Positions 1,057 through 57,064 of a DNA stretch of 64,000 bases are shown here, in pieces. The stretch's first letter is position 1; every line of letters starts with the position of its first letter. The translations under genes and the position numbers were made by a program. The stretch is taken from contig NZ_CP050299.1 of NCBI RefSeq assembly GCF_014189455.1, positions 496,001-560,000 on the forward strand, read 5' to 3'. The notes under the pieces are model-generated. The model was not told the origin of the DNA. It did no database searches and saw only the letters and a program-made list of their open reading frames with translations. This DNA is from Mesorhizobium huakuii. GTDB lineage: Bacteria > Pseudomonadota > Alphaproteobacteria > Rhizobiales > Rhizobiaceae.

Positions 1057-1244
1057 GCACCGGCAGGGCGCGCTGGAAAACCTGGACGTTGATCTTGGTC
1101 TGCTCGGAAACGGTGAAGGTGTGTCCTCCGCACCGGCAGAGTGCAGTTTTCAAGGCGCTGGATGGTAGTGCCTGCAGCGCGTCCGATCGGAGGCCACTTG
1201 ATAAGGAGAGTGATCCGCAAATCCGAATGGCCTCGCGCGAATGT

Positions 1245-2730
1245 TCGCCACCACGCACGTGCCGCCGCGTTCGAGCCACAGCTTGCCTAGCGAGGAGTTG
1301 TGGTGGGGCAGGCGCGATATGCCGAACCCGCCGTAGGCTGTGAGATGAACCGGGGCATCCCCGGTCCCGTTCGCCGGACCGACCTGCGTATAGGGGATCA
1401 TCTCACCATCAATCGAGACTGCCTCGTGGCGCGTGACCACGAGCCCGGATGCGTCGAAATTCTCCGGGTTGCGCTTCAGGATTACTGAAGCGTCGAGAGG
1501 CGGCGCGGCATCGAGGTCAAGTAGGAAAAGCTGCGGCGGCGTAATCGATGAGCCGAAACGAGGACCTCTCCATTGGTCTCGTGATGTTCCGCATCGAGTG
1601 ACCAAAGGTTAACAGTCCCGCGGCCGGGCACGGTGTCCAGGGCTCGGCGCCTCCATTTCTGCCGGCCCGGCGTGAACGTCTCGAAAGAACGAGGTTCACC
1701 AGGTAGGAAATGATGAGCTCCCCGTTATTCCAGAAAAATGACTGCAGGGAGCGCCTCTCGCCTGGTTCAAACAGGGTGACAAAGCCGCGCTCGCCGGCCA
1801 TGAAAGAGGAAAGCGAGATGCCGATCAGCGCGTCGGCGGCATAGGTAGTCCCTCCAACCGTCCAGAGTTTGCGCGGCTTTACCGCCAGCCAGTCATCGAA
1901 GCCATTCCACCAGGCGTCCCGAGGAAGGTCGATCTCAACCTTGGGCCCGCTTCTATCGCCAATGCGGACTATCTGCTCGAAGTAGGCCGGCTTCTCGATA
2001 AACCAAAGGCGGTCGCTTTCGGCGGTACGGTCCAGATGGCTAGACACGCCGATGGTTTCGGAACCAGTCTCGAAGATCATCGGCGCGGTGAGGGGATCCG
2101 CGCCACGCTTCCACAGCCGCACGGTGCGCGCGTAGCCGGAGCGGGTGGCCATGCCATCACCAAGCGCACTGGAAAGCAGAGGCGTGTCAGGGTCGAGCCA
2201 ATCAATGCCGCCCTTGGCCTCCGGGAGATTGAAACCGTCGGCGACTAAGCTCAGAGTCCCTAGATCGAATTCGCGATGCGCGACCGCGTCGCTGCCGCCG
2301 CGCGACAGGCGCAGAACGGCTCTTTCCCGTCTCTCCGGCTCGATCGACGCGCCGCCCTAGATCCAGTCCTCTCCATCGCTAACGGCGAAGGCGTCCAGAT
2401 CGAGCAGTACCTCCCATTGGGGATCCGCCTTCATGTAGGCGGCAAGGGTGGTCCGGCGCGCCAAAGTCCGCGCGGGTTACGGGCATCTTGCCAGAAATTG
2501 TAGAGGTGCTGACCGCGGCGCGCGATCAGCGGAATCTTGTCGGGACGGTCGAAAATCGCTGTCAGGGCCGCGCGGTCGCGCTCGAACTGCGTTCCGCCGA
2601 AGTGCTCCAGGGTCCTTGCCGACTGGTTGGCGGTCCAGTCAAGGGCCCGTTCGCCTTCCACATCTTCGAGCCAAAGGCAGGGATCATCGTCGGGAGCATT
2701 CAGCGTTGGACGGAAATCGAATGCGGTCAT
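1245..2730 (-). pseudogene. Prolyl oligopeptidase family (S9) serine peptidase, truncated and frameshifted
   Basis: Reading leftwards, the gene starts at MTAFDFRPTLNAPDDDPCLW with the S9 N-terminal signature WLEDVEGERALDW, then covers the beta-propeller region in two further frames (shifts near 2450, 2355 and 1700). The catalytic domain begins (LTAYGGFGIS, then GGTCVVANIRA) but the sequence breaks at about 1245, just before the GGGEYGPRWH and nucleophile GGSNGG region would come. It therefore lacks Ser, Asp and His of the triad. It lies behind a NifA/sigma-54 promoter identical in layout to that of the M16 peptidase operon at 10.8-12.4 kb. In life it would have cleaved proline-containing peptides. 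Confidence 0.75.
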
Positions 2731-2828
2731 GTCCGGACAACCCCAGGAAAGAAAGCGCAAAGGCTTCCGTCGGGTCGGGAACGCTCAGTGTTCGCGGCGG
2801 CGACCGCATGTTCGAAAAGCGTGATCAT
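2727..2828 (-). CDS. Short leader ORF (33 aa) ahead of the S9 peptidase relic
   Basis: The ATG at 2828 follows a good ribosome binding site (GAGGAG about 8 bases upstream) and lies about 43 bases below the predicted transcription start of the sigma-54 promoter. It reads MITLFEHAVAA and so on for 33 codons and its TGA overlaps the ATG of the peptidase (ATGA at 2727-2730), so it could couple translation. No family is recognised. It may instead be the shifted true N-terminus of the peptidase. Confidence 0.3.
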   Translation of the reverse strand: MITLFEHAVAAANTERSRPDGSLCAFFPGVVRT

Positions 2829-2882
2829 GGGATGAGTTCTCCTCAGTCGGTGCGGCGCGGCAGTGCGTTTGCGGATAGGACT

Positions 2883-2898
2883 GCATGTGTCGTGCCAA
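2883..2898 (-). promoter_or_regulatory. Sigma-54 promoter (-24/-12) of the S9 peptidase relic
   Basis: On the minus strand TTGGCACGACACATGC gives GG (2896-2895) and GC (2884-2883) exactly 10 bases apart, matching TGGCACG-N4-TTGC except one base. Transcription would start near 2871. A NifA-type site lies at 2944-2959, about 80 bases upstream of that start. Confidence 0.75.
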
Positions 2899-2943
2899 CT
2901 GAGAACATCGTTTCAGAACAATGCGATCACGCTGATAGCGCTG

Positions 2944-2959
2944 TGTCGCATGTCCGACA
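2944..2959. promoter_or_regulatory. NifA upstream activator site TGT-N10-ACA
   Basis: TGTCGCATGTCCGACA is a perfect TGT-N10-ACA site, the consensus for NifA binding. Its centre lies 80 bases upstream of the predicted start of the 2883-2898 promoter, the same spacing as in the copy at 12484-12499. Confidence 0.75.
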
Positions 2960-2989
2960 TCGTCGAAGATCCAACAATGACTGCAACCG

Positions 2990-3322
2990 TAAACGCCTTA
3001 TCGATCGTGTGCGAGCTGGCAGGACACCCTGCAAAACTCAAGCAGTGAAGCTCACAGCGCATCAGGTCGGGCGACCGGTGGGCCCCGTTCTCTTTTTCTC
3101 GGGTCTTCGAACTTTTCGTTGGCGTGAAGGTTCGCCTGCGGGGAAATTCCTTCCAGGAGGCCTTCGATGACCCAGCCTATTGCGCCCGACGTTACGACAA
3201 CTTCGCGGCGTGCAATCCACCGTCCGCCATACCGACCCTTCAAGGAACGTCTGGAACGGGCGCAGGAGTCGATAGCGGCTATGAAATCGACTCCTTTGAC
3301 CCGCTACAGGAGTTGGCCTCTC
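2990..3322. other. Intergenic stretch without recognisable gene
   Basis: Short open frames occur on both strands but none shows a family signature or a convincing ribosome binding site together with length. It separates the activator site of the S9 relic from the XRE relic. Confidence 0.4.
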
Positions 3323-3422
3323 ATGCATGGAGATTCGAGAGTCTTTGCCCGCAATCTGCGACAGCATCGACAGACAAAGAGCAGGACGCGTTGGCGCATG
3401 AGGCCGGCGTTGACCGGACTTA

Positions 3423-4329
3423 GAGTCCGTTTTGAAAATCACGGATGGGCGTTTCGGCGGATGAGATTGCCGCCCATTGCGACAAGGATCATGGCGTGAG
3501 AGACGTCGATGCGCTGCTCGTAGTCGCGCACGAGGCGGCGCCATCGGGTCATCCAGCCGAAGGTCCGCTCGACGACCCAGCGGCGGGGCAAGACTTCGAA
3601 GCCCTTCTGGTCGTCGGATCGACGGATGATCTCGACCACGAAGTCGAGATAGGCGGCTTTGTCCATGAGCTTCAGCCGGTCATAGGCGCCGTCGGCGAAC
3701 AGATGCTTGACCCAGGGCCAGCGCTTGCGGATACCATCCAGGATCGCCTGAGCGCCGGCACTGTCGGAGATATCGGCGGTGGTGAGGTTGACCATCAACA
3801 GCCGTCCATCCGTATCGACGGCAATGTGTCGCTTGCGGCCGACAATCTTCTTGCCGGCGTCGTAACCCCTTGTTTCAGCTTGCGGAGCCTTGATCGACTG
3901 GCTGTCGATCACGCCAGCCGTGGGACTGGCCTCGCGCCCGGCTCGCTCGCGATCCAGCATCAGCGCCACGTCGTGGATGGTCTGGAACAGAAAGCGCCTC
4001 GCCAACTCGCGGAACCAGCCGTAGACCGTCTGCCAGGGGCCGAAATGGATCGGCAGCATCCGCCAACCGCAACCCGAGCGGACCAGGTAACGCACCGCGT
4101 TGACCACCTCCCGGAAATCAACCTCGCGCGGACGCCCGCGACGCCCAGGCTTGGGCATCAGCGGTGCGAACTGCTCCCACTCCTCGTCCGTCAAACCAGA
4201 CGGGTAGCGCTTGGTCTTCTTGGCAATCTGGGCCATCCGGCCACGGCTCTGCTCTGTCCACATCCACAGCCTGAATCATAACCCAGCCTCAGACGGAACC
4301 CATAGCCAGCCGATTTTCAAAACGGTCTC
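3423..4329 (-). mobile_element. Complete IS5-family insertion sequence, 907 bp
   Basis: Terminal inverted repeats are GAGTCCGTTTTGAAAATC at the left (3423-3440) and GAGACCGTTTTGAAAATC read from the right end (4329-4312), 17 of 18 identical. The flanks carry a 3-bp duplication TTA (3420-3422 and 4330-4332). One intact transposase fills it. It interrupts an XRE gene whose halves can be joined across the site, which fixes the borders to the base. Confidence 0.9.
3439..4263 (-). CDS. IS5-family DDE transposase
   Basis: 274 codons, start at MWTEQSRGRM, uninterrupted. It has the N-terminal YPSGLTDEEWEQFAPLMP segment, the RGRPREVDFREVVNAVRYL region and the DDE core: Asp in GVIDSQSIK, Asp in HLFADGAYD, and Glu in RRWVVERTFGWMTRWRRL. 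This is the full length expected for the group, so the element is probably still active or recently so. It catalyses cut-and-paste transposition using the 18-bp ends described for the element. Confidence 0.92.
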   Translation of the reverse strand: MWTEQSRGRMAQIAKKTKRYPSGLTDEEWEQFAPLMPKPGRRGRPREVDFREVVNAVRYLVRSGCGWRMLPIHFGPWQTVYGWFRELARRFLFQTIHDVALMLDRERAGREASPTAGVIDSQSIKAPQAETRGYDAGKKIVGRKRHIAVDTDGRLLMVNLTTADISDSAGAQAILDGIRKRWPWVKHLFADGAYDRLKLMDKAAYLDFVVEIIRRSDDQKGFEVLPRRWVVERTFGWMTRWRRLVRDYEQRIDVSHAMILVAMGGNLIRRNAHP

Positions 4330-4456
4330 TTACATCAGTGCGCTGGAACGTGGCGTGTAAGGCGCCACTATCGATATGATCGACAAGCTTGCCAAGGTAC
4401 TCCAAATTGAACCGGCGGTCTTGTTGGATCGGCGGTCGCAGACAGACGCGCAATGA

Positions 4457-4683
4457 TGATGCGCGGGAAAGTTTGACAGCGCTACGCGCCGTCCCCGCAT
4501 CGACCGACAGCTCGGTTGAATAGACGTCGCACTCGATGCTGAGAGCCGTCGCAATCGATCAGGGCGTGCCTGGCGTGCAGTGGGTCCCGGTTGCCCGGCG
4601 CTGTCTCAAGGAATAGCGCACAAAATCCCCCCGGGGAAACTGATTCATGCGCCATTTAGCCACGTTCAGCGTTTTCCGATACC
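4457..4683. other. Non-coding stretch before the third promoter cassette
   Basis: No gene or clear motif was recognised between the XRE relic and the degenerate activator site at 4684. Confidence 0.4.
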
Positions 4684-4699
4684 CGACGGGCACGCTACA
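4684..4699. promoter_or_regulatory. Degenerate NifA activator site (half site only)
   Basis: CGA-N10-ACA sits where TGT-N10-ACA lies in the other two promoter copies: centre 79-80 bases upstream of the predicted start of the promoter at 4744-4759. The flanking ACATAGCA is also shared with the copy near 12.48 kb. The right half-site is kept, the left TGT is lost. Confidence 0.45.
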
Positions 4700-4743
4700 T
4701 AGCATGATCTGATCCATAAGTTGTTTTTAAATGCTTTTTTGCT

Positions 4744-4759
4744 TTGGCACGGTACATGC
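4744..4759 (+). promoter_or_regulatory. Sigma-54 promoter, third copy of the peptidase-type cassette
   Basis: TTGGCACGGTACATGC has GG and GC 10 bases apart. Downstream, TGCGCGG and the ribosome-site region GGACTGAGGAGA match the copies at 12425-12440 and 2883-2898. The start codon that follows (4803) heads a frame with an early stop. Confidence 0.65.
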
Positions 4760-4802
4760 GCGGTCTACGGCAAAAGGCGTTCGGACTGAGGAGAGTCGTC
4801 TC

Positions 4803-5408
4803 ATGGCCCCGAAAAGCCGCTGACTTACGCCACCTCCCAAGGCGTACCCGGCCCGGCAGCGAGCTCAGTCTCCTGCCGGGCATCCGGTTTCAGGGTGGAT
4901 GTGCCCTGGTGTTCAGGAGTTGAAGTTGGGCGGCGGCAATGTCCGCGCCGAATGGAATATGAGAAGGCAATCTCCAACCGTCTCGAGTGGGATTTCCGAC
5001 GGCATTAAGAAGCGCCGGATAGACTCAGCGCCCAGGGGCGAGGAACTCGTCGTCGAGGAGCTTTTGTCCGACGATGCGACGGTGGCATCGGAAAACATCG
5101 CCGGCATGAGCGACCGCAGCCGGCGTCTGTTCGACGGGATGATCGCGTCGGCGCCGTCCGTGAGCGGCGCATGTCCATCACCGCATGAACAGATCCGCGG
5201 CGACAACTCCTGCGCCCAATCGGACGCGACGCTCGGCTGCTATTTGTCCGTCGCTGCTGAGATACCCCACTCGGATCGGACGCGCGCCCTCGTCACCGAA
5301 TTCCCGACCGATCGGATCCCGACGGAGACAGATGGCCCCGTCACTCAGGTTGACGGTCGTCCCAGCGAGCGCGCTGACGGGAACAACTGCCGTCGCCGCG
5401 ATTGCTGA
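4803..5408 (+). pseudogene. Unknown ORF behind the third sigma-54 cassette, early stop
   Basis: ATG at 4803 follows TGAGGAGAG with normal spacing, but the frame reads only MAPKSR before TGA at 4821. The same frame then stays open to 5408 (about 195 codons, with a possible restart at 4899). The predicted product has no motif I recognise and is rich in charged residues. It may be a decayed gene once induced with the peptidases, or chance. The position behind a NifA-like promoter is the only functional hint. Confidence 0.3.
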
Positions 5409-5512
5409 CGTTCGGAATTTCCCGGTCGATGCCGCCTCGCGACCTCGGTAAGATTAAACCTTCGCTTCCTGCTGGGCGGCGCCCTTGACGGGCTAGAAAA
5501 ATTGTAATCTTC

Positions 5513-5541
5513 GTGCTACATATTCAGTCATATTGTAGTAC
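5513..5541. promoter_or_regulatory. Inverted-repeat operator upstream of the hipA relic
   Basis: GTGCTACA (5513-5520) and TGTAGTAC (5534-5541) are inverted copies, 7 of 8 matching, spaced by 13 bases in AT-rich sequence. A strong ribosome site (CGGAGGTG) and ATG at 5553 follow. Operators of this shape bind HipB-type antitoxins ahead of hipBA; the function here is inferred from position. Confidence 0.45.
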
Positions 5542-5575
5542 GGAGGTGTCAAATGCCAACCCCACACAACCCGCA

Positions 5576-6184
5576 TGGCACCCGGACCGCTTCTCGCTCG
5601 AGCCAGATCTTGCTCTGACCCGCGGGGCCTTCGCTCCTTCTGCCGGTCTCGCGACTTTCGGGTCCATCGGCGACTCGGCGCCAGATACTTGGGGGCGCCA
5701 TCATACTCGAAAAGGATGGTCTCCGTGCCGCGGACGCGATTGCTCCTCGCCATTCCGATCGGGCGTATGCGACCGTCCAGATCGATATGCACCTCGAACT
5801 CAGTCATCGCGCGATGATCCGACTGGCCGCCTGAGATGGACGTGCGTAGGCAGATCGGCGCTGGCCAGCGCCTGTCCGACGCTGTCGTTTCTGATGTCGG
5901 CAACTTGACTCAGGCCCTCTAGCAGGCCGAGCGCCTGCAGGACGCCGGCATAAATGCCGATGCTGACGTTGTTGTCCCCGAGGACACCTGTTCGCTCGAT
6001 CTTTTCTGCGTCGGAGTTTTTTGCGCTCACGCTGGCGCAAGCCCGGGCGATTATCAAAGGAGTCGCGGCCGTGACCGCGACATGGCGGGACGCCGCCAAC
6101 GCAGTCGGCGCCCGCTCGGCCGAGATAAACCGCATGGCCAGCGCCTTCGAGCACGACGACCTCAAGCGGGCGCTGGCGCTGTGA
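5576..6184 (+). pseudogene. hipA: HipA-like kinase toxin relic with inverted N-terminal segment
   Basis: Plus strand 5576-5698 encodes WHPDRFSLEP, then ALTRGAFAP and FGSIGDSAPDTWGR, the N-subdomain core of HipA. The true beginning (MTEFEVHIDLDGRIRPIGMA, then RGTETILFEYDG) is present but on the minus strand at 5807-5697, immediately abutting. The far C-terminus (ATWRDAANAVGARSAEINRM, ending FEHDDLKRALAL) is on the plus strand up to 6184. The whole kinase centre, around 300 residues, is missing. HipA kinases phosphorylate GltX and cause dormancy; this one cannot. Confidence 0.75.
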
Positions 6185-7460
6185 CAAGGACATTCCTTCA
6201 CAGTTTCGATCCAGCAGCGCCAGTCCCGGCGGCCCCGCGTCGCATGAAATACGACACAGATAAACGAAAGGAACATACAGACAGTGATTACCCGAGGGGT
6301 GATCCGGATCGCTCCCAAGGGAACGATGGGCAAGGCAATCTCGTAGGAAGTCTAGGTCCTGGATGGACCCTCCCAGGGACGTTCAACAGATTGAGAGGCC
6401 GCGCTCTCCTACCCCATCACGCGGCCGGTTCGGTGCAGACCGCGAAGAGAAGCGAATTACCAACGGGGCGACATCGTTCGGAAAAGACGGAAAGCCTGAC
6501 CTCACCGACCCCAATAGGAAAACTCCAGCCTCGCCAGCGCCTCCGCGTCTCCAGCAGGGCCTGCACCGCCTGCGCCGCGCCCTTGGCATCCAGGATCTTG
6601 AGGATATCGTCCTTGCTGGGTTTCTGGCCGCCGAGCCCGAGTTTCCCCAGCGGCTCCGCATTGTCCACAAAGGCCTTCAAAGCAAGTGATCCCACCGGTG
6701 GCGGCGGAAGCGATGATATCCTTGCACTACAGTGCCAAAGGTTCATCGGCCAGGCATTGCTGTGGACGAACCTCCCGGAGCGGGGCACGCAACGTATCTG
6801 GGACTGTGGCCTTGGGATCGCGATCCGTTCATCATCCAGGAGTTTCGCTTCGCGCCAGATGTTCCCGACATCCAACCGCGGGTCTCGACCACAATGTCCC
6901 GATCGCTGCCTCCTATTCCAGGCGCAGACCCCAAGGATCGCCTGATGCCGATCTGAGCTGACGTCGCGCAAGCATCGGTCAAGTAGCGTTCGCCCTGCCG
7001 GACGCAGGCGAGCCACGCGATGCCGTAGGCTACCGGCAAGCGTCTGCGTATCAAGATCCAGGCCGCCCCCATAAGCTTCAGTCGATCGAGCAGTGGGCTC
7101 GCTGCCATGGGCGGAACCGATGAAGCCGCTGATCTACCGGTCCACGCGGCGCGCGACTGCAAACAAGCCCGACGTAGAGACCTTGTTCGGGCCGCTTGCC
7201 GAACTGCAACTCGAAACGTTCGAAGCCTCTCGGCGAGGACCGCCTGGTCCCTCGCAAGCTTGTCGCCCGCCACATGCGCCTTCTGCGCCGACAACCAGGC
7301 GCTTTCCTCGTCGAGACAACATCCAGCCAGTACTTCAGAATTGCGTCTGCACGGGTTGCGGAGCCGCACGCCGGCACCCATCGAGCAGCGATCTTTCGAT
7401 TCCCGTATTCGGAGATCGCTCGCGCGGTTGCCGTATCTGCGAACCGCGCAAGCAGATGCT
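6185..7460. other. 1.3 kb without an assignable gene
   Basis: Overlapping open frames exist on both strands (for example a minus frame around 6430-6660 with a helical LGKLGLGGQKPSKDDILKIL segment, and a plus frame at 6732-6956). Each breaks after short stretches and none matches a family I know. It is probably a much-mutated gene remnant downstream of the aldehyde dehydrogenase relic. Confidence 0.4.
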
Positions 7461-8917
7461 TCAGATTCCGCCCATGCAAAGGTATTTCATTTCGAGGTAG
7501 TCCTCGAGGCCATGGCGGGAACCCTCCCGCCCGATACCCGACTGTTTGATCCCGCCAAAGGGTGCCGCTTCCGAGGACATGCGTCCCGTGTTGATACCGA
7601 CCATGCCATATTCCAGGGCCTCGGCCACACGCCAGACTCGCTTCAGGTTTGAGGCATAGAAGTAGGCAGCGAGGCCGTAGATCGTGTCGTTGGCCTCACG
7701 CACGACCTGATCCGCATCGTCGAAGCGAATGATTGGCGCCAGCGGCCCGAAAGTCTCTTCCTGCGCAACCGCCATCACGCTGGAAATCTCGGTGAGGACC
7801 GTTGGTTCGAAAAACGTGCCATCCTTGCCGATGCGATTGCCCCCGCATCGAATTGTACCGCCTTTTTCGACCGCATCCGCAATATGGGATTCGATCTTGG
7901 CCAGAGCATGCTTGTCTATGAGCGGTCCGATATCCACCCCGGGAGCGAAGCCGTCGCCGACCGATAAGCGGCGGACTTTCTCCACGAATTTCTCGACGAA
8001 CTCGTCGTGAACTTTCGATTGAACGTAAAGGCGGTTCGCCGACACGCAGGTCTGGCCGGCATTGCGGAACTTCGCCTGGATCGCACCGTCGACCGCAGCG
8101 TCGATTTCGGCGTCGTCGAAGACGATGAAAGGTGCATTGCCGCCGAGTTCGAGGCTGACCTTCTTGATCTGGTCCGAGCATTGGCGCATCAGCAGCCGGC
8201 CAACCTCGGTCGATCCTGTGAAGCTGATCTTGCGGACCTTGGGATTGGCACAAAGTTCGCGGCCAACCGCATCACCTTCGGACGCATAGATCAGGTTGAC
8301 GACGCCTTCGGGAAAGCCGGCCTGATGGGCGAGGGCGAACATTGCGCCAGCCACGAGGGGGTCTGCTCAGCGGGCTTGAGGACAATGGTGCAGCCTGCGG
8401 CCAAGGCTGGCGAGATCTTGCGTGCGACCATGGACGCTGGGAAATTCCAGGGTGTTATCGTCCCGACGACGCCGATCGGTTGCTTGATCACCAGCATCCG
8501 ACGGTCCGTCGATGGTGCGGAGATCGTCTCGCCATAGATGCGATTGGCCTCCTCGGCGTACCATTGCAGGTACGCCGCAGCATGCGACACCTCCGATTTG
8601 GCTTCGGCAAGCGGCTTGCCCATCTCCGCTGTGAGTATAGCGGCGAGATCGTCGGCGTGGTCGATGATCAACTGATGCCAACGCCACAGAACGTCGCTGC
8701 GCTCACGTGCGGTCAATCCTGCCCATCCAGGTTGGGCGCCATAGGCCTTGTCGATCGCAGCGCATGTTTCCTCGACACCCATGTCGGGAAGCTCTGCCAG
8801 GACTTCGCCAGTCGACGGGTTGACGACCTCGAATGTTCGGTTGCTAATGCGCGTGCCAAGTGCCGGCAGGCGATCAATGGGTCCAAACAGGGCGGGGGAT
8901 TTCAGGTGACGGATCAT
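7461..8917 (-). pseudogene. gabD: Succinate-semialdehyde dehydrogenase-like NAD(P) aldehyde dehydrogenase, one frameshift
   Basis: Starts at MIRHLKSPALFG (8917); Rossmann part includes VNPSTGEVLAELPD, PIGVVGTITPWNFP and KPAEQTP. The second part carries the catalytic Glu in VSLELGGNAPF and the nucleophile Cys in FRNAGQTCVSANRL, ending LEDYLEMKYLCMGGI. Full family length (about 485 residues). A single missing base in a C-run (G-run at 8356-8360 on the plus strand) shifts the frame between TP and LVAGAMFALAHQ. It would oxidise succinate semialdehyde to succinate in the GABA route. The lesion is in a homopolymer, so sequencing error is possible. Confidence 0.85.
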
Positions 8918-9396
8918 CGGCAGGCACAGGGGCAATACCGGATTCCTCTTCAGCGCAGCAGAGATGTATGTCGGCAGGGTTCGGTGTATTCCGCAAGCGC
9001 GGGAACGTAGTAGGACCTCGGCCAAACAGCTGGTAGGCCACCGTCCCCAAACTGGAAAGGGAGGATACTTTTGAATTCTCTAATAGATGCTCGCGGTTCT
9101 CGCTAGGCGAAAAAATCAGAAGTCGGCTTCGCCATCCGCACGCAGTGCATGCAGGGGGCCTGCGCCTTCAATCTGCGGACCATGATCGGGGTCCTCTATC
9201 CACCCGAAGAGAAGCTGGCGTGAGGAGGAGCGTGCCACAATCAGGCGAGTCGGCCGCCTGAACCGGCAGACGCCCCGCAAGGGCCGCCAAAACCGCTCGG
9301 CGGGCTTCTAAAAAACCACTAGCCCACCGAACAGGGTTTCGCTCCCCCATGGGAAGACCTCACAAGGGGAAAAGGAAGGCGAATGGCGACCTGGTC
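8918..9396. other. Intergenic region between M16 operon and aldehyde dehydrogenase
   Basis: No family signature. A short plus frame around 9100-9223 (AFNLRTMIGVLYPPEEKLA, then TGA) looks gene-like but is not recognised. No promoter for the aldehyde dehydrogenase was identified. Confidence 0.35.
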
Positions 9397-10798
9397 TCAT
9401 CCTTTGCCCCCCAGCGGCGGGCCGACCACCATAATGGCGGGCTCGGCCGAAAGCAGCTTCTTCGCCGCAGCCTTGACCTGGTCGAGCGTCACCTGATCGA
9501 TGAGGGCGGTGCGGCGCTGGATGTAGTCGGTGCCGAGATTGTTGAGCTGCAATCCGACGAGCGTGGCTGCAATCGAGCTGGAGGAATCCAGATAGTTGAT
9601 GGCATAGGCCCCGATCAGATGCTTCTTGCTCGCCTCGAGCTCGGCCTCCGTCGGCCCCTGCTGTGCCATCTGCTTCACAACCTGATGCACGATGCTCAGC
9701 GTCTCGGCGGCGCGGTCGGAGCGTGTCGCCGTCGTAACCAGCAGCGCATAAGAATGCTCGTAACCGGCCAGATAAGAGCCGACGCGATAGGCAAAGGCCG
9801 CGCTTTTCGCGCACCTCCTCCCACAGGCGCGACGTGGAGGGCGAGCCGCCGAGGATATCGTTCATCAGCAGTGCGGCGAAGAAATCCGGCTCACTGCGTC
9901 CGATGCCAGGAAAAGCCAATTGCAGCGAGGTCTGCGGAAGCTCGTAGTTCACCTCCACCTGCTGTCCGAGTTTCGCGGCGACATCGGCAACGGGGGAGAG
10001 CGTCTGCTTCTCGTGCAAATCGCCGAACAGCTGGTCGAGCTTTTTACTCAGCCTCTTCCCGTCGATGTCGCCAACCACGACAACATGGAGCCCGTCGCGT
10101 GCGAAAATGGCCTTGTGGAAGGCGCCGAGATCGGCCGCCGTTATGCCGGCGAGGCTCACTTTGGTCCCTTCGTCCGGCCTCGAATACGGATGCGTGCCGT
10201 AGATCGCGCGTAGCCATTTGCGCTGAGCGATCGCATCGGGGTCGGGCTCATTGGCAATGATGCCGGAGAGCACCTGGGCGCGGATGCGGTCGACCGGCTC
10301 CTGGTCGAAGCGCGGCCTGTTGACCGCGAGCCTGAGCAGATCGAAAGCGGCTTCCTGTTGTTCCGAAAGCATGCGCATCGAGCCGTGGATGCCGTCGCGT
10401 TGCGCGTCGAAGCTCATCTCGGCGCCGGCATCGTCGAGCTTCACCTGGAAGGCATCGCTGTCGAGATCGCCGGCGCCCTCGTCGAACAGGCGGGTCATCA
10501 GATGAATGAGCCCCTCCTTGCCGACCGGGGCCTGCGTGGTGCCGCCCTTGAAGACGAAGCGGACCGAGATAATCGGCACCGTATGGTCCTCGACCAGCCA
10601 GGCGTTGATTCCCTTTTCAGATTTCACCTCCTGGATGTTCATCGCCGCATGGGCCCTGACCGCAGGCAGGATGAGGAAGAGGATGGCGAGGAGGAGGATG
10701 GCCAGCGGGGTGGCGAGGCGTGCGACGCTGCCTTCTGCCGCTGAAAGCGGAAATGGCAGGGCTTGTGCATAGGCGGCACGGTGTTGGTTCATCGTCAC
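9397..10798 (-). pseudogene. M16B peptidase, non-catalytic partner subunit, one frameshift
   Basis: Start GTG at 10798 (ATG at 10792 alternative), overlapping or abutting the stop of the upstream M16 gene, so one operon. A Sec signal (hydrophobic stretch LATPLAILLLAILFLILPAV, cleavage after AHA) exports it. The M16 fold is clear but the zinc motif HxxEH is replaced (GLIHLMTRLFDEGAG), as in the inactive partner of two-chain M16B enzymes. A one-base shift near 9810 separates LWEEVREKRG from FAYRVGSYLAGYEHSYALL; the final part runs to AIMVVGPPLGGKG at 9397. It is likely to form the clamshell with the catalytic chain in the periplasm. Confidence 0.85.
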
Positions 10799-10799
10799 A

Positions 10800-12380
10800 T
10801 CAATTCTCCGTCTTGGGCAAGAGATAGCCGGTGGTCGAATGGTCGGACACGAGATAGCGGGCGGCGACGGCCTTCACCTGATCGGCGGTGACCTTGCGGA
10901 TGCGGTCCGGCCATTCCTGTACATCTTTTACGGTACCGCCGGTGGCAAGCGTCGAGCCATACATGTTGGCGAGGTAGTCCTGTTCGTCTTGGGCGAAGAT
11001 CACCGAGCGGACATAGCGGTCTTTGGCCTTTTCCAGCTCTTCATCTGTCACACCGTCCTTGGCGATGCGGGCGACTTCGGCGTCGGCCGCGGCTTCTAGG
11101 TCGGCAAGCCTTGCACCGCCGCGCGGCGAGCCGTAGATGCCGAAGTTGGTGGCATCCAGCATGGTGCCCTGGAAATTGGCGCTGGCCTCGGTGGCTATTC
11201 CCTGTTTCACCACCAACTGCTGGTAGAGCCGGCTGCGGCTGCCGCCGCCGAGGATCTCGGCCAGGAGGTCGAGCGCCTCGGCCTCGCCAGGTTCGGCCGT
11301 ATGATAGGACGGCACCACCCATTGCGTGGAAAAGCGGGGCACCGAAACGCGCGCGTCGGTGAGCGTCACCGTGCGCTTGGTGTTCTGCTCCGGCTCGACC
11401 GGCCGGACTCGCGGCTGCTGCTCCGGTCCGCGCGAGAGCTTGCCATACGTCTTCTCGGTCAGCGCCTTCACCGTCTCCGGGTCGACATCGCCCGCCACCA
11501 CCACAACGGCGTTGTTGGGGTTATAATATTTGTTGTAGAAGGCCGCGGCGTCGACGCGGTTCAGCTGCTCCATCTCTTGCATCCAGCCGATGATCGAAAT
11601 GCGGTAGGGGTGGTTCTGCCAGAGTGTGGCGTCGACCTCCTCGTCCAGCACCGCCTGCGGGTTGGTCTCGATACGCCAACGGCGCTCCTCCAGGATCACG
11701 TCGCGCTCGGTCTTGATGACATCGTCGGTGAGGATGAGGTTGCGCATACGGTCGGCCTCGAAGCCCATCATCTGCTCCAACGCCGAGGGCGCCACTCTCT
11801 GGTAGAAGGCGGTATAGTCGTAAGAGGTGAAGGCATTGTGCGAGCCGCCGATCTCGGCCACCGCGCGGTTCAGCTCGCCGGCGACGTGATTGGCCGTGGC
11901 CTTGAACATCAAATGCTCGAAGAAATGCGCGATGCCGGATTTACCCGACGGCTCGTCGGCGCTGCCGACCTTGTACCACACCATATGGGTGACGATCGGC
12001 GCGCGGTGATCGGGGACGACGACCACCTCCATGCCGTTGTCGAGCAGGAAATCCGTCACCTTGCCGTCGTCGGTGGCGGCCAGAGCCGGAGCGGTCATCG
12101 CGAAAACCAAGGCGGTCTCGATGAGTGCCCTGCGCAGCCACCGTGACGGAAGTTTGGTGGATGGCTCCGGTTGTGGTGGCCGGACGATCGGCAAGGTTCG
12201 TGGCAAAGCGATTTCCTTAATTTGAAGGCGCTGCGTCCCCGTCTCCCCGTGTGGGAGAAAGTGGACCGGTAGGCAGCGCCGATCCACCCGAGCCGCCTGC
12301 ATGTTGCCAGGCCTTGCTCGAGCCTCATCTTTGGATGCGTCCGGGAGACGTGCGGCGTTATTTTTTGGTGAGGTGACCAT
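10800..12380 (-). CDS. M16 zinc metallopeptidase, catalytic subunit, exported
   Basis: The inverzincin motif HFFEH is in [20 protein letters not shown], with the third ligand Glu about 75 residues later in [14 protein letters not shown]. An export signal is seen ([17 protein letters not shown], cleavage before ATDDGK). I chose ATG at 12380 because AAGGAG precedes it and it lies about 33 bases below the predicted start of the sigma-54 promoter; a TTG at 12206 with AAGGAAA would give a shorter, more usual signal peptide, and the 58 residues between look non-native. The longer frame to 12626 runs through the promoter and is rejected. With the following gene it forms a two-subunit peptide-degrading enzyme, probably NifA-induced in bacteroids. 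Confidence 0.88.
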
Positions 12381-12424
12381 GGGACGGCTTCTCCTTGGTC
12401 CGTGACGCGTTTGCGGATGACCGC

Positions 12425-12440
12425 GCACGTGCCGTGCCAA
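12425..12440 (-). promoter_or_regulatory. Sigma-54 promoter of the M16 peptidase operon
   Basis: Minus strand TTGGCACGGCACGTGC has GG (12438-12437) and GC (12426-12425) at the required 10-base gap. The transcription start is predicted near 12413, between this element and the ATG at 12380. Confidence 0.78.
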
Positions 12441-12483
12441 ATGAGAAAACCGTTTCGGCAATGTGATAAATCGGGCTCTGCTA

Positions 12484-12499
12484 TGTTGCGTATCCGACA
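12484..12499. promoter_or_regulatory. NifA upstream activator site TGT-N10-ACA
   Basis: TGTTGCGTATCCGACA is a perfect TGT-N10-ACA site centred 79 bases upstream of the predicted start, exactly as in the copy at 2944-2959. Confidence 0.78.
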
Positions 12500-13425
12500 T
12501 TGTCGGACATCGGACGGCGCCGAACGCGAAGCGCTTGCGGCTTGGGACGATATCTTGCTCGTGCGGAAGACGATTGAGCGTGCTGCCGCGGGAGGGATAA
12601 AATGCGCCTCGAACTGGCCGCGGCACTGAGAGGGTTGGAATGGAGACGATGTGGTGGTCGACGCAGAACGCTGTCCTCGACAGGCAGGCCAGGGTCGACG
12701 CTGAACGAGCAGCGGAGTCAGGAGCCTGGCCGGTTAGGAAGGAAGGTGGCCGCCAGGCTCGCAGTGGAGGTGGCGGAGAGGCGAGGGGGAGCTCGGCAGG
12801 CCGACGTCAAGGAGGCTTGCTCAAGGGCACCTGGCGAGAGCGTGGCATTGCCGGGTCTGGCCTCGGCAGCGTGCTTGATCAGTTGCCAGAGCTGCCCAAA
12901 GCTATCCGGGATCGCGAGGCAATGTGTGTACACCTCCCGACAAAGTCGCGGGGTTGCTAGACGCTGGGCCGTGCACCCAAGCCGACAGAGAGCGCCTAGC
13001 CATTTTGAAAAACCAACAAACAAGGCAGCGCCGGGAGACGCTCTCGGCGTGTTTCTTATAGGAACCGCAATTCGCCATCCTCAGGACGCTGAGACATTGC
13101 GGTTGATTGATCATATATCGGCGGATGCGAGGACGAAGCGGCCTTGAGCGACGCCCTTTGCTGATCCCGCCGGCAGCCGAAGCTGGTCGAGATTTGGTAA
13201 AAGGCGATCGACGGCCGGACGGCGATTGGTGAGGCGGCATGAGCAGCGCGCTCAATATTACGCTTCTCGTCCAAAATCTAAATCGCGAAAGAAATCACAA
13301 GCGATAGCCTCCGAACCTTTCGCCGAGGCCGAGTTCGTATGGCACCGTCACCGCCGCATTCATCTTGAATCGCAAGTTCACCTGTGGCCGTAAAAGAACC
13401 CAGTCATCGCGCAACGCCCCGTTCT
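12500..13425. other. 0.9 kb with no recognisable gene
   Basis: Frames on both strands are short or lack any motif. No terminator, riboswitch or RNA gene was recognised. Confidence 0.4.
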
Positions 13426-55657: not shown

Positions 55658-55698
55658 AGCACGGCGTGAGGTCCGGCGCGTGTCTCGCGCCGCCAATT

Positions 55699-55713
55699 TG
55701 GCACGGCGCTTGC
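55699..55713 (+). promoter_or_regulatory. Sigma-54 promoter of dctA
   Basis: TGGCACGGCGCTTGC is a perfect -24/-12 element (GG 55700-55701, GC 55712-55713), 111 bases before the dctA ATG. dctA is the textbook DctD/sigma-54 gene. Confidence 0.9.
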
Positions 55714-55823
55714 GACCGACATGGCAGCGGCGTTCGACCGGAGTGCCGCGATGCGAGAAGCCTGGGATGGGACGAAGCGCCCGGCCCCTATCCGGTTGGG
55801 GAGAGAAATGGTGTTAGCTCCAC

Positions 55824-57064
55824 ATGTCCGCAGCGCGGTACGCGGCGCCTCGCAAGGCCTTCTACGCCAAGCCCTATGTGCAGGTGCTTGCCGCCATCGC
55901 CCTCGGCGTCGCACTCGGCTATTTCTATCCGGGGATCGGCGAAAGCGCGAAGCCGCTCGGTGATGCCTTCATCAAGCTTGTCAAGATGATCATCGCGCCT
56001 GTCGTCTTCCTGACAATTGCGACCGGCATCGCCGGCATGAACGATCTCCAGAAGGTCGGCCGAGTTGCCGGCAAGGCGATGGTCCATTTCCTCACCTTCT
56101 CGACGCTCGCACTTATCGTCGGCCTTGTCGTCGCCAATGTCGTTCAGCCGGGCGCCGGCCTCAACATCGATCCGGCCTTGCTCGACGTCCAGGCCGTGAA
56201 TACCTATGCCGCGAAGGCCCACGAGCAGTCCGTCACCGGCTTCCTGATGAACATCATCCCGTCGACGATCGTCGGCGCCTTCGCGCAAGGCGACATCCTG
56301 CAGGTCCTGTTCTTCTCGGTTCTGTTCGGCATCGCCCTGGCCACGGTAGGAGAGACGGGCAAGCCTGTCGTTTGCTTCCTTCAGGCACTGATCGCCCCCA
56401 TTTTCAAGCTCGTCAGCCTGCTGATGAAGGCCGCCCCGATCGGGGCTTTCGGCGCGATGGCCTTCACCACCGGCAAATATGGCATCGGGTCGATCGTTAA
56501 CCTCGCGATGCTGGTCGGGACGTCCTATTTCACCGCCTTCCTTTTCGTGTTCGGCGTTCTCGGCGCGGTCTGCCGTTACAACGGGTTCTCGATCTTTTCT
56601 CTCATTCGCTACATCAAGGAAAAGCTGCTGCTTGTCCTGGCAACGTCCTCCTCGGAGGCCGCGCTGCCCTCGATCATGGAGAAGATGGAGAAGGCCGGCG
56701 CCAAGCGTTCCGTCGTGGGACTAGCCGTCCCGACCGGCTATCCCTTCAACCTGGACGGCACCAATATCCACATGACGCTGGCGGCCCTCTTCATCGCCCA
56801 GGCGACGAATTCGATCTCTCGATTGGCGATCGGATCCTGCTGCTTCTCGTCGCCATGCTCCCTTCGAAAGGAGCAACTCGCATTACCGCTGCAGGCTTCG
56901 TCACTTTGGCTGCAACGCTCTTTGTCATCCCGACCGCCCCGCTCGCCGGCATGGCGCTGATCCTTGGCGTCGACCGCTTCATGTCCGAATGCCAGGCGCT
57001 GACGAATGTCGTTGGCAACGCGGTGGCTTCGCTCGTCCTCGCCCGCTGGGGGCGAGCCGGATGA
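55824..57064 (+). pseudogene. dctA: C4-dicarboxylate transporter DctA, one frameshift near the end
   Basis: ATG 55824. The DAACS-family body is intact: [55 protein letters not shown] and the substrate loop [20 protein letters not shown]. Around 56820 (after QATNSIS) one base is missing; the last two helices continue in another frame: [36 protein letters not shown] and the end at 57064. It imports succinate, malate and fumarate, the bacteroid carbon source. If the lesion is real a second dctA must exist elsewhere. Confidence 0.92.

Follow-up and report, generated by a model that had tools for sequence, protein, structure and literature searches.

Three kinds of described system come closest to the DNA considered here, a 64,000-nt stretch of the Mesorhizobium huakuii genome (hereafter, the window; contig NZ_CP050299.1, or C4, positions 496001-560000), in which three related NifA/sigma-54 promoter cassettes, A, B and C, precede, respectively, a relic of a prolyl oligopeptidase (S9) gene, a pair of M16 peptidase genes and a conserved element that we read as a putative small RNA. 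The NifA promoters of M. loti R7A share the architecture of these cassettes, and the −24/−12 elements of msi158 (ompW) and acdS match those of cassettes A/L021 and C/L018, respectively (L numbers denote loci) (PMC3538637). In the M. huakuii genome, too, an OmpW-family gene is present, next after the intact S9 gene. By contrast, the 16 promoters in Table 1 of the R7A report include neither a peptidase gene nor a small RNA (PMC3538637). The second comparison is with HrrP and the M16B-like SapA which, as here, are M16 metallopeptidases linked to symbiosis (PMC8175422). However, HrrP is a fused single chain, whereas the M16 proteins of the window are encoded by two separate genes, and HrrP and SapA are predicted to be cytoplasmic, whereas the first M16 gene of the window has a leader resembling a signal peptide (judged by eye) and a NifA promoter (PMC8175422). 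Plasmid pNGR234a of strain NGR234 carries the same gene pair (L262), with NifA sites and a sigma-54 element upstream, but the −24/−12 spacer and the leader differ from those in the window.

The third system is the small RNA NfeR1 (alpha-r14, or 'cuckoo') which, like the element behind cassette C, presents an anti-Shine-Dalgarno motif in a hairpin loop in an alphaproteobacterial symbiont, and which is active in bacteroids (PMC10746234). The two differ in that alpha-r14 has three hairpins, each with CCUCCUCCC, whereas the element shows ACCUCCCAA in a single hairpin. Moreover, NfeR1 has LsrB as its activator and NtrC as its repressor (PMC10746234), whereas the element lies behind a NifA/sigma-54 promoter and has no match in Rfam. 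Some sister cores that lack a sigma-54 site carry CCTCCTCCC in a single hairpin, again unlike the three CCUCCUCCC hairpins of alpha-r14.

We consider it likely that a single promoter lineage has been copied on the symbiosis replicons, with copies A and B placed before peptidase genes and copy C producing a NifA-driven small RNA. In the nodule, NifA would bind the upstream sites and activate sigma-54 polymerase at the −24/−12 element; cassettes A and B would have been recruited before the S9 gene and the M16 pair, and cassette C would transcribe a small RNA of ~110-125 nt, the first hairpin of which would display the anti-Shine-Dalgarno loop ACCUCCCAA. This loop could pair with GGGAGGU ribosome sites and would most likely block translation of mRNAs with GGGAGG-type sites in bacteroids. 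A bolder version, which we regard as possible without leaning towards it, is that the symbiosis plasmids and islands of Mesorhizobium carry a multi-copy anti-Shine-Dalgarno small RNA which, once turned on by NifA, silences a set of mRNAs during nitrogenase production, and that this promoter lineage, in some cases together with an export leader, has been copied onto several unrelated peptidases, so that one cassette would couple RNA silencing and proteolysis to nitrogen fixation. The way in which bacteroids shut down their own growth and nitrogen assimilation during fixation is only partly explained, and a small RNA under direct NifA control in many nifH-bearing Mesorhizobium genomes would, if real, be a testable route. 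The peptidase part would be a clear case of a regulon growing by promoter copying. What was not expected is the third copy, with its NifA-linked small-RNA element for which Rfam gave no match.

The 8.45-Mb genome comprises four contigs (C1, 7.1 Mb; C4, 686 kb). Of its two rpoN genes, one is on C4, as are nifH and two nifA genes. On the minus strand, the motif scan placed the −24/−12 element of cassette A, TTGGCACGACACATGC, at 2883-2898 and the downstream one of its tandem NifA sites (TGT-N10-ACA) at 2944-2959; alignment of the cassettes added the upstream site at 2961-2976 which, as TGT-N10-ACG, is one letter off. All 16 letters of TTGGCACGACACATGC recur in the msi158 (ompW) promoter in Table 1 for M. 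loti R7A (PMC3538637). Cassette B, also on the minus strand, consists of TTGGCACGGCACGTGC (12425-12440), a NifA site (12484-12499) and, upstream, a CGT-N10-ACA site that is one letter off (12501-12516). Cassette C, on the plus strand, has its −24/−12 element, TTGGCACGGTACATGC, at 4744-4759, and comparison with relatives revealed the remains of two NifA sites, fused by a 6-bp deletion, at 4672-4699. The GG/GC dinucleotides of all three fit TGGCACG-N4-TTGC, and the pattern TTGGCACG-N5-TGC, present once per cassette (2883-2898, 12425-12440 and 4744-4759), has 30 matches genome-wide versus three for a reversed control pattern. Given that TGT-N10-ACA by itself occurs at eight places in the window, only the combination of sites is informative. 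After masking of the −24/−12 block and the exact activator half-sites, the pairwise alignment scores for A/B, A/C and B/C (85, 50 and 76) were higher than any of the 500 shuffles made for each pair (maxima 39, 38 and 35; z 16.0, 8.5 and 17.6). The relationship of the three promoters, proposed by an earlier sequence-only reading of the window together with flanking words shared by A and B, which are present, is thus better than chance even without the motifs. That reading also had cassette C keeping its −24/−12 element, which it does, and losing one half-site; the loss is in fact 6 bp across the junction of both NifA sites, so that no intact TGT-N10-ACA is left in C, whereas the relatives of C have it and one exact site survives in each of A and B. 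In the relatives, the sites stand in tandem (TGT-N10-ACA, one base, TGT-N10-ACA).

The family extends well beyond three copies, the number given by the sequence-only reading. Twelve cassettes of this genome share a common form, with tandem NifA sites at a 17-bp period, a T-rich stretch and the −24/−12 element, followed in some by a word resembling TCCGCAAACGC and by a GGAG leader. A model built from these 12 sequences (R2) matched 22 places in the genome at E 2.2e-5 or better (4 on C2, 8 on C3 and 10 on C4), of which 12 are the training sequences and two of the other ten are near copies of these; on the 7.1-Mb C1 it found no cassette (best E 0.02). Nine of the 22 precede peptidase genes or relics from five groups (S9, S9-like, M16, S46 and M10), bearing out the proposed association with peptidases; three precede the small-RNA element and ten have other cargo, including, with names assigned by eye, a HesB/iscN-like leader before nifS, methyltransferases, a transporter, an IS transposase and a formyltransferase-like long open reading frame (ORF). 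Across the genus, R2 matched 101 of 146 genomes, namely all 100 counted as nifH-bearing (97 score above the curated cut-off, and G017, G020 and G051 have strong partial matches) and one other (G007), a link that is to be expected since R2 may also match ordinary nif/fix promoters.

The conserved core behind cassette C starts 67 nt past the −12 element and is nearly identical in two further copies in the same genome (C4:134.6 kb and C4:165.8 kb), the flanks of which differ. The predicted small RNA spans 4770-4893 on the plus strand, with the 5' end deduced from the −12 position and an uncertain 3' end. Folding and alignment delimit hairpin 1 (4826-4846), which exposes ACCUCCCAA, an anti-Shine-Dalgarno sequence, in its loop (4832-4840), and hairpin 2 (4851-4881), with a GC-rich stem of 9 bp and a conserved loop, as a possible terminator. 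In the folded cassette C transcript the ACCUCCCAA loop is predicted to be fully exposed, and in 38 of 50 distinct sigma-54-linked transcripts it is predicted to be open (mean 0.8 or more). In an alignment of 90 rows from 88 chosen sources (two rows being weak antisense matches), 96.2% of hairpin pairs are paired, compared with 29-46% when the pairing is slid, and helix 1 shows compensatory changes (TACGCC/GGCGTA versus TATGCC/GGCATG), with 16 double-changed cells versus 3.4 in shuffled alignments. Overall, support for the structure is moderate. A search of window positions 4600-5500 and of L057 against Rfam, which includes alpha-r14, returned no relevant match at E up to 10, and none of six loci reached a gathering score.

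The sequence-only reading had cassette C driving an ORF, but the region is better read as non-coding. An ORF of 15 codons spans the core in only 13, 2 and 10 (by frame) of 56 distinct transcripts (with an ATG, in 1, 2 and 4), so that no frame is open in more than 13, and a coding ORF was rejected. It is highly improbable that the core encodes a short peptide, even though cassette C has a ribosome-site-like GAGGAG and an ATG six codons before the core, because gaps of 1-2 bases occur within the core and the 60-aa gene annotated in Mesorhizobium strain 582 (isolated from Oxytropis), which supplies the nearest plasmid record for the cassette C region, begins 38 nt past it. Among seven Mesorhizobium plasmid records with the core, five are unannotated under the match, and that of AR07 lacks any annotation. 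The element has its own promoter, a conserved structure and no shared ORF, as expected of a trans-acting small RNA; its independence as an RNA, its action in trans and its targets are inferred.

The coupling of the element to sigma-54 and NifA sites can be traced through the genus. A promoter-free model from 28 core sequences (R1) yielded 126 matches in 86 of 146 Mesorhizobium genomes. In the 112 matches that were read (the noise match L092 being excluded), the sigma-54 consensus is present ~47-66 nt upstream with 13/13 letters in 75, 12/13 in five and 11/13 in one, compared with a chance of ~0.0045 per 95 bp for 12-13 letters. An exact NifA site lies within 130 bp upstream in 70 of 79 sigma-54-bearing core loci, and 29 have two in tandem. 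By genome, a sigma-54-linked core is found among the loci read in 67 of the 86; in nine none was read, G081 was read in part, and nine (G013, G020, G021, G025, G051, G052, G056, G063 and G102) have only matches without sigma-54 sites. In an exact 18-base scan of species genomes, which found 44 loci (28 in Mesorhizobium, one in Aminobacter and 15 in scattered other taxa), GGCA-N8-GC stands 55-67 nt upstream in 23 of the 29 Mesorhizobium and Aminobacter loci versus none of the other 15. The element is present in 84 of 100 nifH-bearing genomes versus 2 of 46 others (Fisher p 2e-21, in a test that ignores kinship and also counts the sisters without sigma-54 sites). Across the family (297 genomes of 109 genera), R1 matched five genomes, two of them outside Mesorhizobium, one of which has the promoter. 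What the sequences document is the promoter family, the conservation of the element, the way in which it is coupled to sigma-54 and NifA sites and linked with nifH, and the lack of a shared coding frame. Sister cores without a sigma-54 site include L142, L160, L168, L175, L183 and others, several with CCTCCTCCC loops. In another genus, a weak R1 match (L204) lies just past a gene resembling that of electron-transfer flavoprotein alpha (by eye), and might be a related terminator hairpin.

Published reporter data bear on the NifA part of the proposal. In R7A bacteroids, msi158::lacZ gave 1282 Miller units in the wild type versus 5.5 in a nifA2 mutant, and acdS::lacZ gave 369 versus 7.5 (PMC3538637). 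The −24/−12 element of msi158 is that of cassette A and its sister; that listed for acdS, TTGGCACGGTACATGCT (PMC3538637), is also the promoter above the core in several acdS-linked loci of relatives. Since the elements match, these experiments support NifA2 dependence for genes behind this promoter class, and transcription from the listed acdS promoter of M. loti may cover the element first.

Several observations weigh against the preferred reading. On the promoter side, all three copies in the window are damaged, each lying on a damaged gene or having a damaged site; the cassette C copy, with its activator sites broken, may be weak, and better copies are found elsewhere in the genome. Furthermore, C4:661.9 kb carries a second, intact M16 pair that has lost the −24/−12 element and keeps only the cassette leader, which would argue against a working M16 regulon in this strain. 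Together with several other copies that front relics or an IS transposase, these facts would fit promoter copies left over from plasmid rearrangement, duplicated along with genes and insertion sequences, that now have no regulatory role. We regard this as unlikely, given the conservation of the small-RNA promoter and core in many genomes and the presence of a sigma-54 element (at least 11/13 letters) before the peptidase gene in 11 of 12 picked plasmid loci; of these 11, however, one has no exact NifA site, and in five the element lies 490-633 bp upstream.

On the side of the element, 31 of the 112 R1 matches read have no notable sigma-54 site, among them sister cores with the loop CCTCCTCCC. 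The loop is predicted to be partly paired (0.58-0.79) in 12 of the 50 folded transcripts, and the 191-nt cassette C stretch folds no better than shuffles (z −0.84). With the 28 training sequences only, covariation is weak (one changed cell, equalled by 40 of 500 shuffles); the larger alignment had been fitted to the structure, and 27 of its rows leave one helix-1 pair unpaired. Perfect 9-nt target sites before start codons number four in the genome versus one in the control, and ntrB, considered by analogy with NfeR1, shows no good pairing at its start region. Finally, hairpin 2 is not followed by a U-run, and acdS transcription probably reads through it. The element could therefore be a structured 5' leader, or a processed fragment, of longer NifA-driven mRNAs such as that of acdS, an alternative that we rate as rather unlikely and for which the main reason is that acdS is reached despite hairpin 2: the gene starts ~0.64 kb downstream of the core in 11 loci compared, is NifA2-dependent in R7A and is listed there with the −24/−12 element that stands above the core in several of those loci (PMC3538637). 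A long stretch nonetheless separates the core from acdS, and the other loci share no downstream gene, being followed by hypothetical genes, opposite-strand genes or none annotated.

For the small RNA that we favour, one of the perfect start-site matches, TTGGGAGGT at C2:97255 (L234), immediately precedes the start of a gene, znuC-like by eye, for an ABC transporter ATPase; this gene is a possible target. The small-RNA list for M. huakuii 7653R has five plasmid candidates, none recognizable as this element, going by their descriptions only (PMC5596092).

The peptidase genes behind the cassettes are in various states of decay. As the sequence-only reading had it, cassette A fronts an S9 relic (1237-2760, minus strand), truncated and in several frames, which corresponds to residues 1-511 of an intact 706-aa paralogue at C4:36.4 kb (L237) that is itself cassette-fronted; the S9 protein has no evident leader (judged by eye), and Pfam found nothing in two ORF pieces of the relic. 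The M16 pair attributed to cassette B is also there, but only the first gene (10800-12380, minus strand, with an HFFEH motif) is open, the second (9397-10798, minus strand) being frameshifted near 9.8 kb; in strain 582 the reverse holds, with the first gene broken and the second intact. Three cassettes front S46 sequences, namely an intact gene of 719 aa (C3:81.8 kb), a frameshifted one (C3:291 kb) and an N-terminal relic (C3:94.8 kb, by eye). The cassettes at C3:49.2 kb and C3:304.2 kb precede identical copies of a broken S9-like gene, which we take to be DPP-IV-like; Pfam assigned its last piece to Peptidase_S9, with the middle piece below threshold and the first without a match. Behind the cassette at C3:196.3 kb, an M10 serralysin-type ORF of 1170 aa has an S46-like leader ahead of MPNPSQTSD, the point at which its S. 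meliloti pSymB orthologue starts. In the one pSymB record, the 700 bp upstream of the orthologue contain no NifA site and, at best, 10/13 sigma-54 letters. The M10 ORF looks like a capture of promoter plus leader, and the spread by promoter copying that the sequence-only reading proposed is supported, this fusion included.

Elsewhere among rhizobia, 12 peptidase loci on other plasmids were hand-picked from match lists and their upstream regions scanned; 78 of 1800 shuffled 850-bp stretches reach 11/13 sigma-54 letters. The M16 pair has a NifA site and a sigma-54 element upstream in all six picked loci (Mesorhizobium AR02, M. amorphae, Rhizobium CC1099, S. chiapasense, R. gallicum and NGR234); in three they lie 490-633 bp above the coding sequence, with a stretch similar to the S9-like relic between cassette and pair. 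Both picked S46 loci have the two kinds of site, all three S9 loci have a sigma-54 element (one without an exact NifA site, two with the element ~620 bp upstream), and the single M10 locus shows no such promoter. These patterns support a peptidase regulon as a promoter architecture in several rhizobia. Relatives of the M16, S9 and S46 genes reside on plasmids of isolates from Phaseolus, Calliandra, Acaciella, soybean and Lotus, as well as Oxytropis, Astragalus and Medicago. Since these hosts include legumes outside the group that makes nodule cysteine-rich (NCR) peptides, the distribution does not single out NCR-making hosts, and specialization of the peptidases on such peptides is unsupported.

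Some further features of the genome deserve mention. A trypsin-family (S1) peptidase gene with an apparent signal peptide (by eye) lies at C4:666.0 kb (L243:5020-5856), beside a relic of the C-terminal part of nifA (C4:665576-665740); no cassette was seen upstream. At C4:667.3 kb (L244:431-883), a 150-aa ORF without a Pfam match has an S46-type leader (MYSNLKRLAQATAIA) and lies behind a decayed cassette. Behind the cassette at C2:158.5-163 kb (L249) stands an ORF of at least 1376 aa, the start of which resembles a formyltransferase and a later part nonribosomal peptide synthetases (by eye). Within the window, an IS4/5-type transposase gene (Pfam; 3439-4263) separates cassettes A and C, and an aldehyde dehydrogenase gene (7461-9025) is split over two frames (the second piece by eye), at a place where strain 582 has a single annotated succinate-semialdehyde dehydrogenase gene. 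At 55698-56960, the sigma-54 element TTGGCACGGCGCTTGC, with no exact NifA site above it, precedes a 378-aa ORF for a DctA-like sodium:dicarboxylate symporter that stops short of the last part of the Pfam profile.

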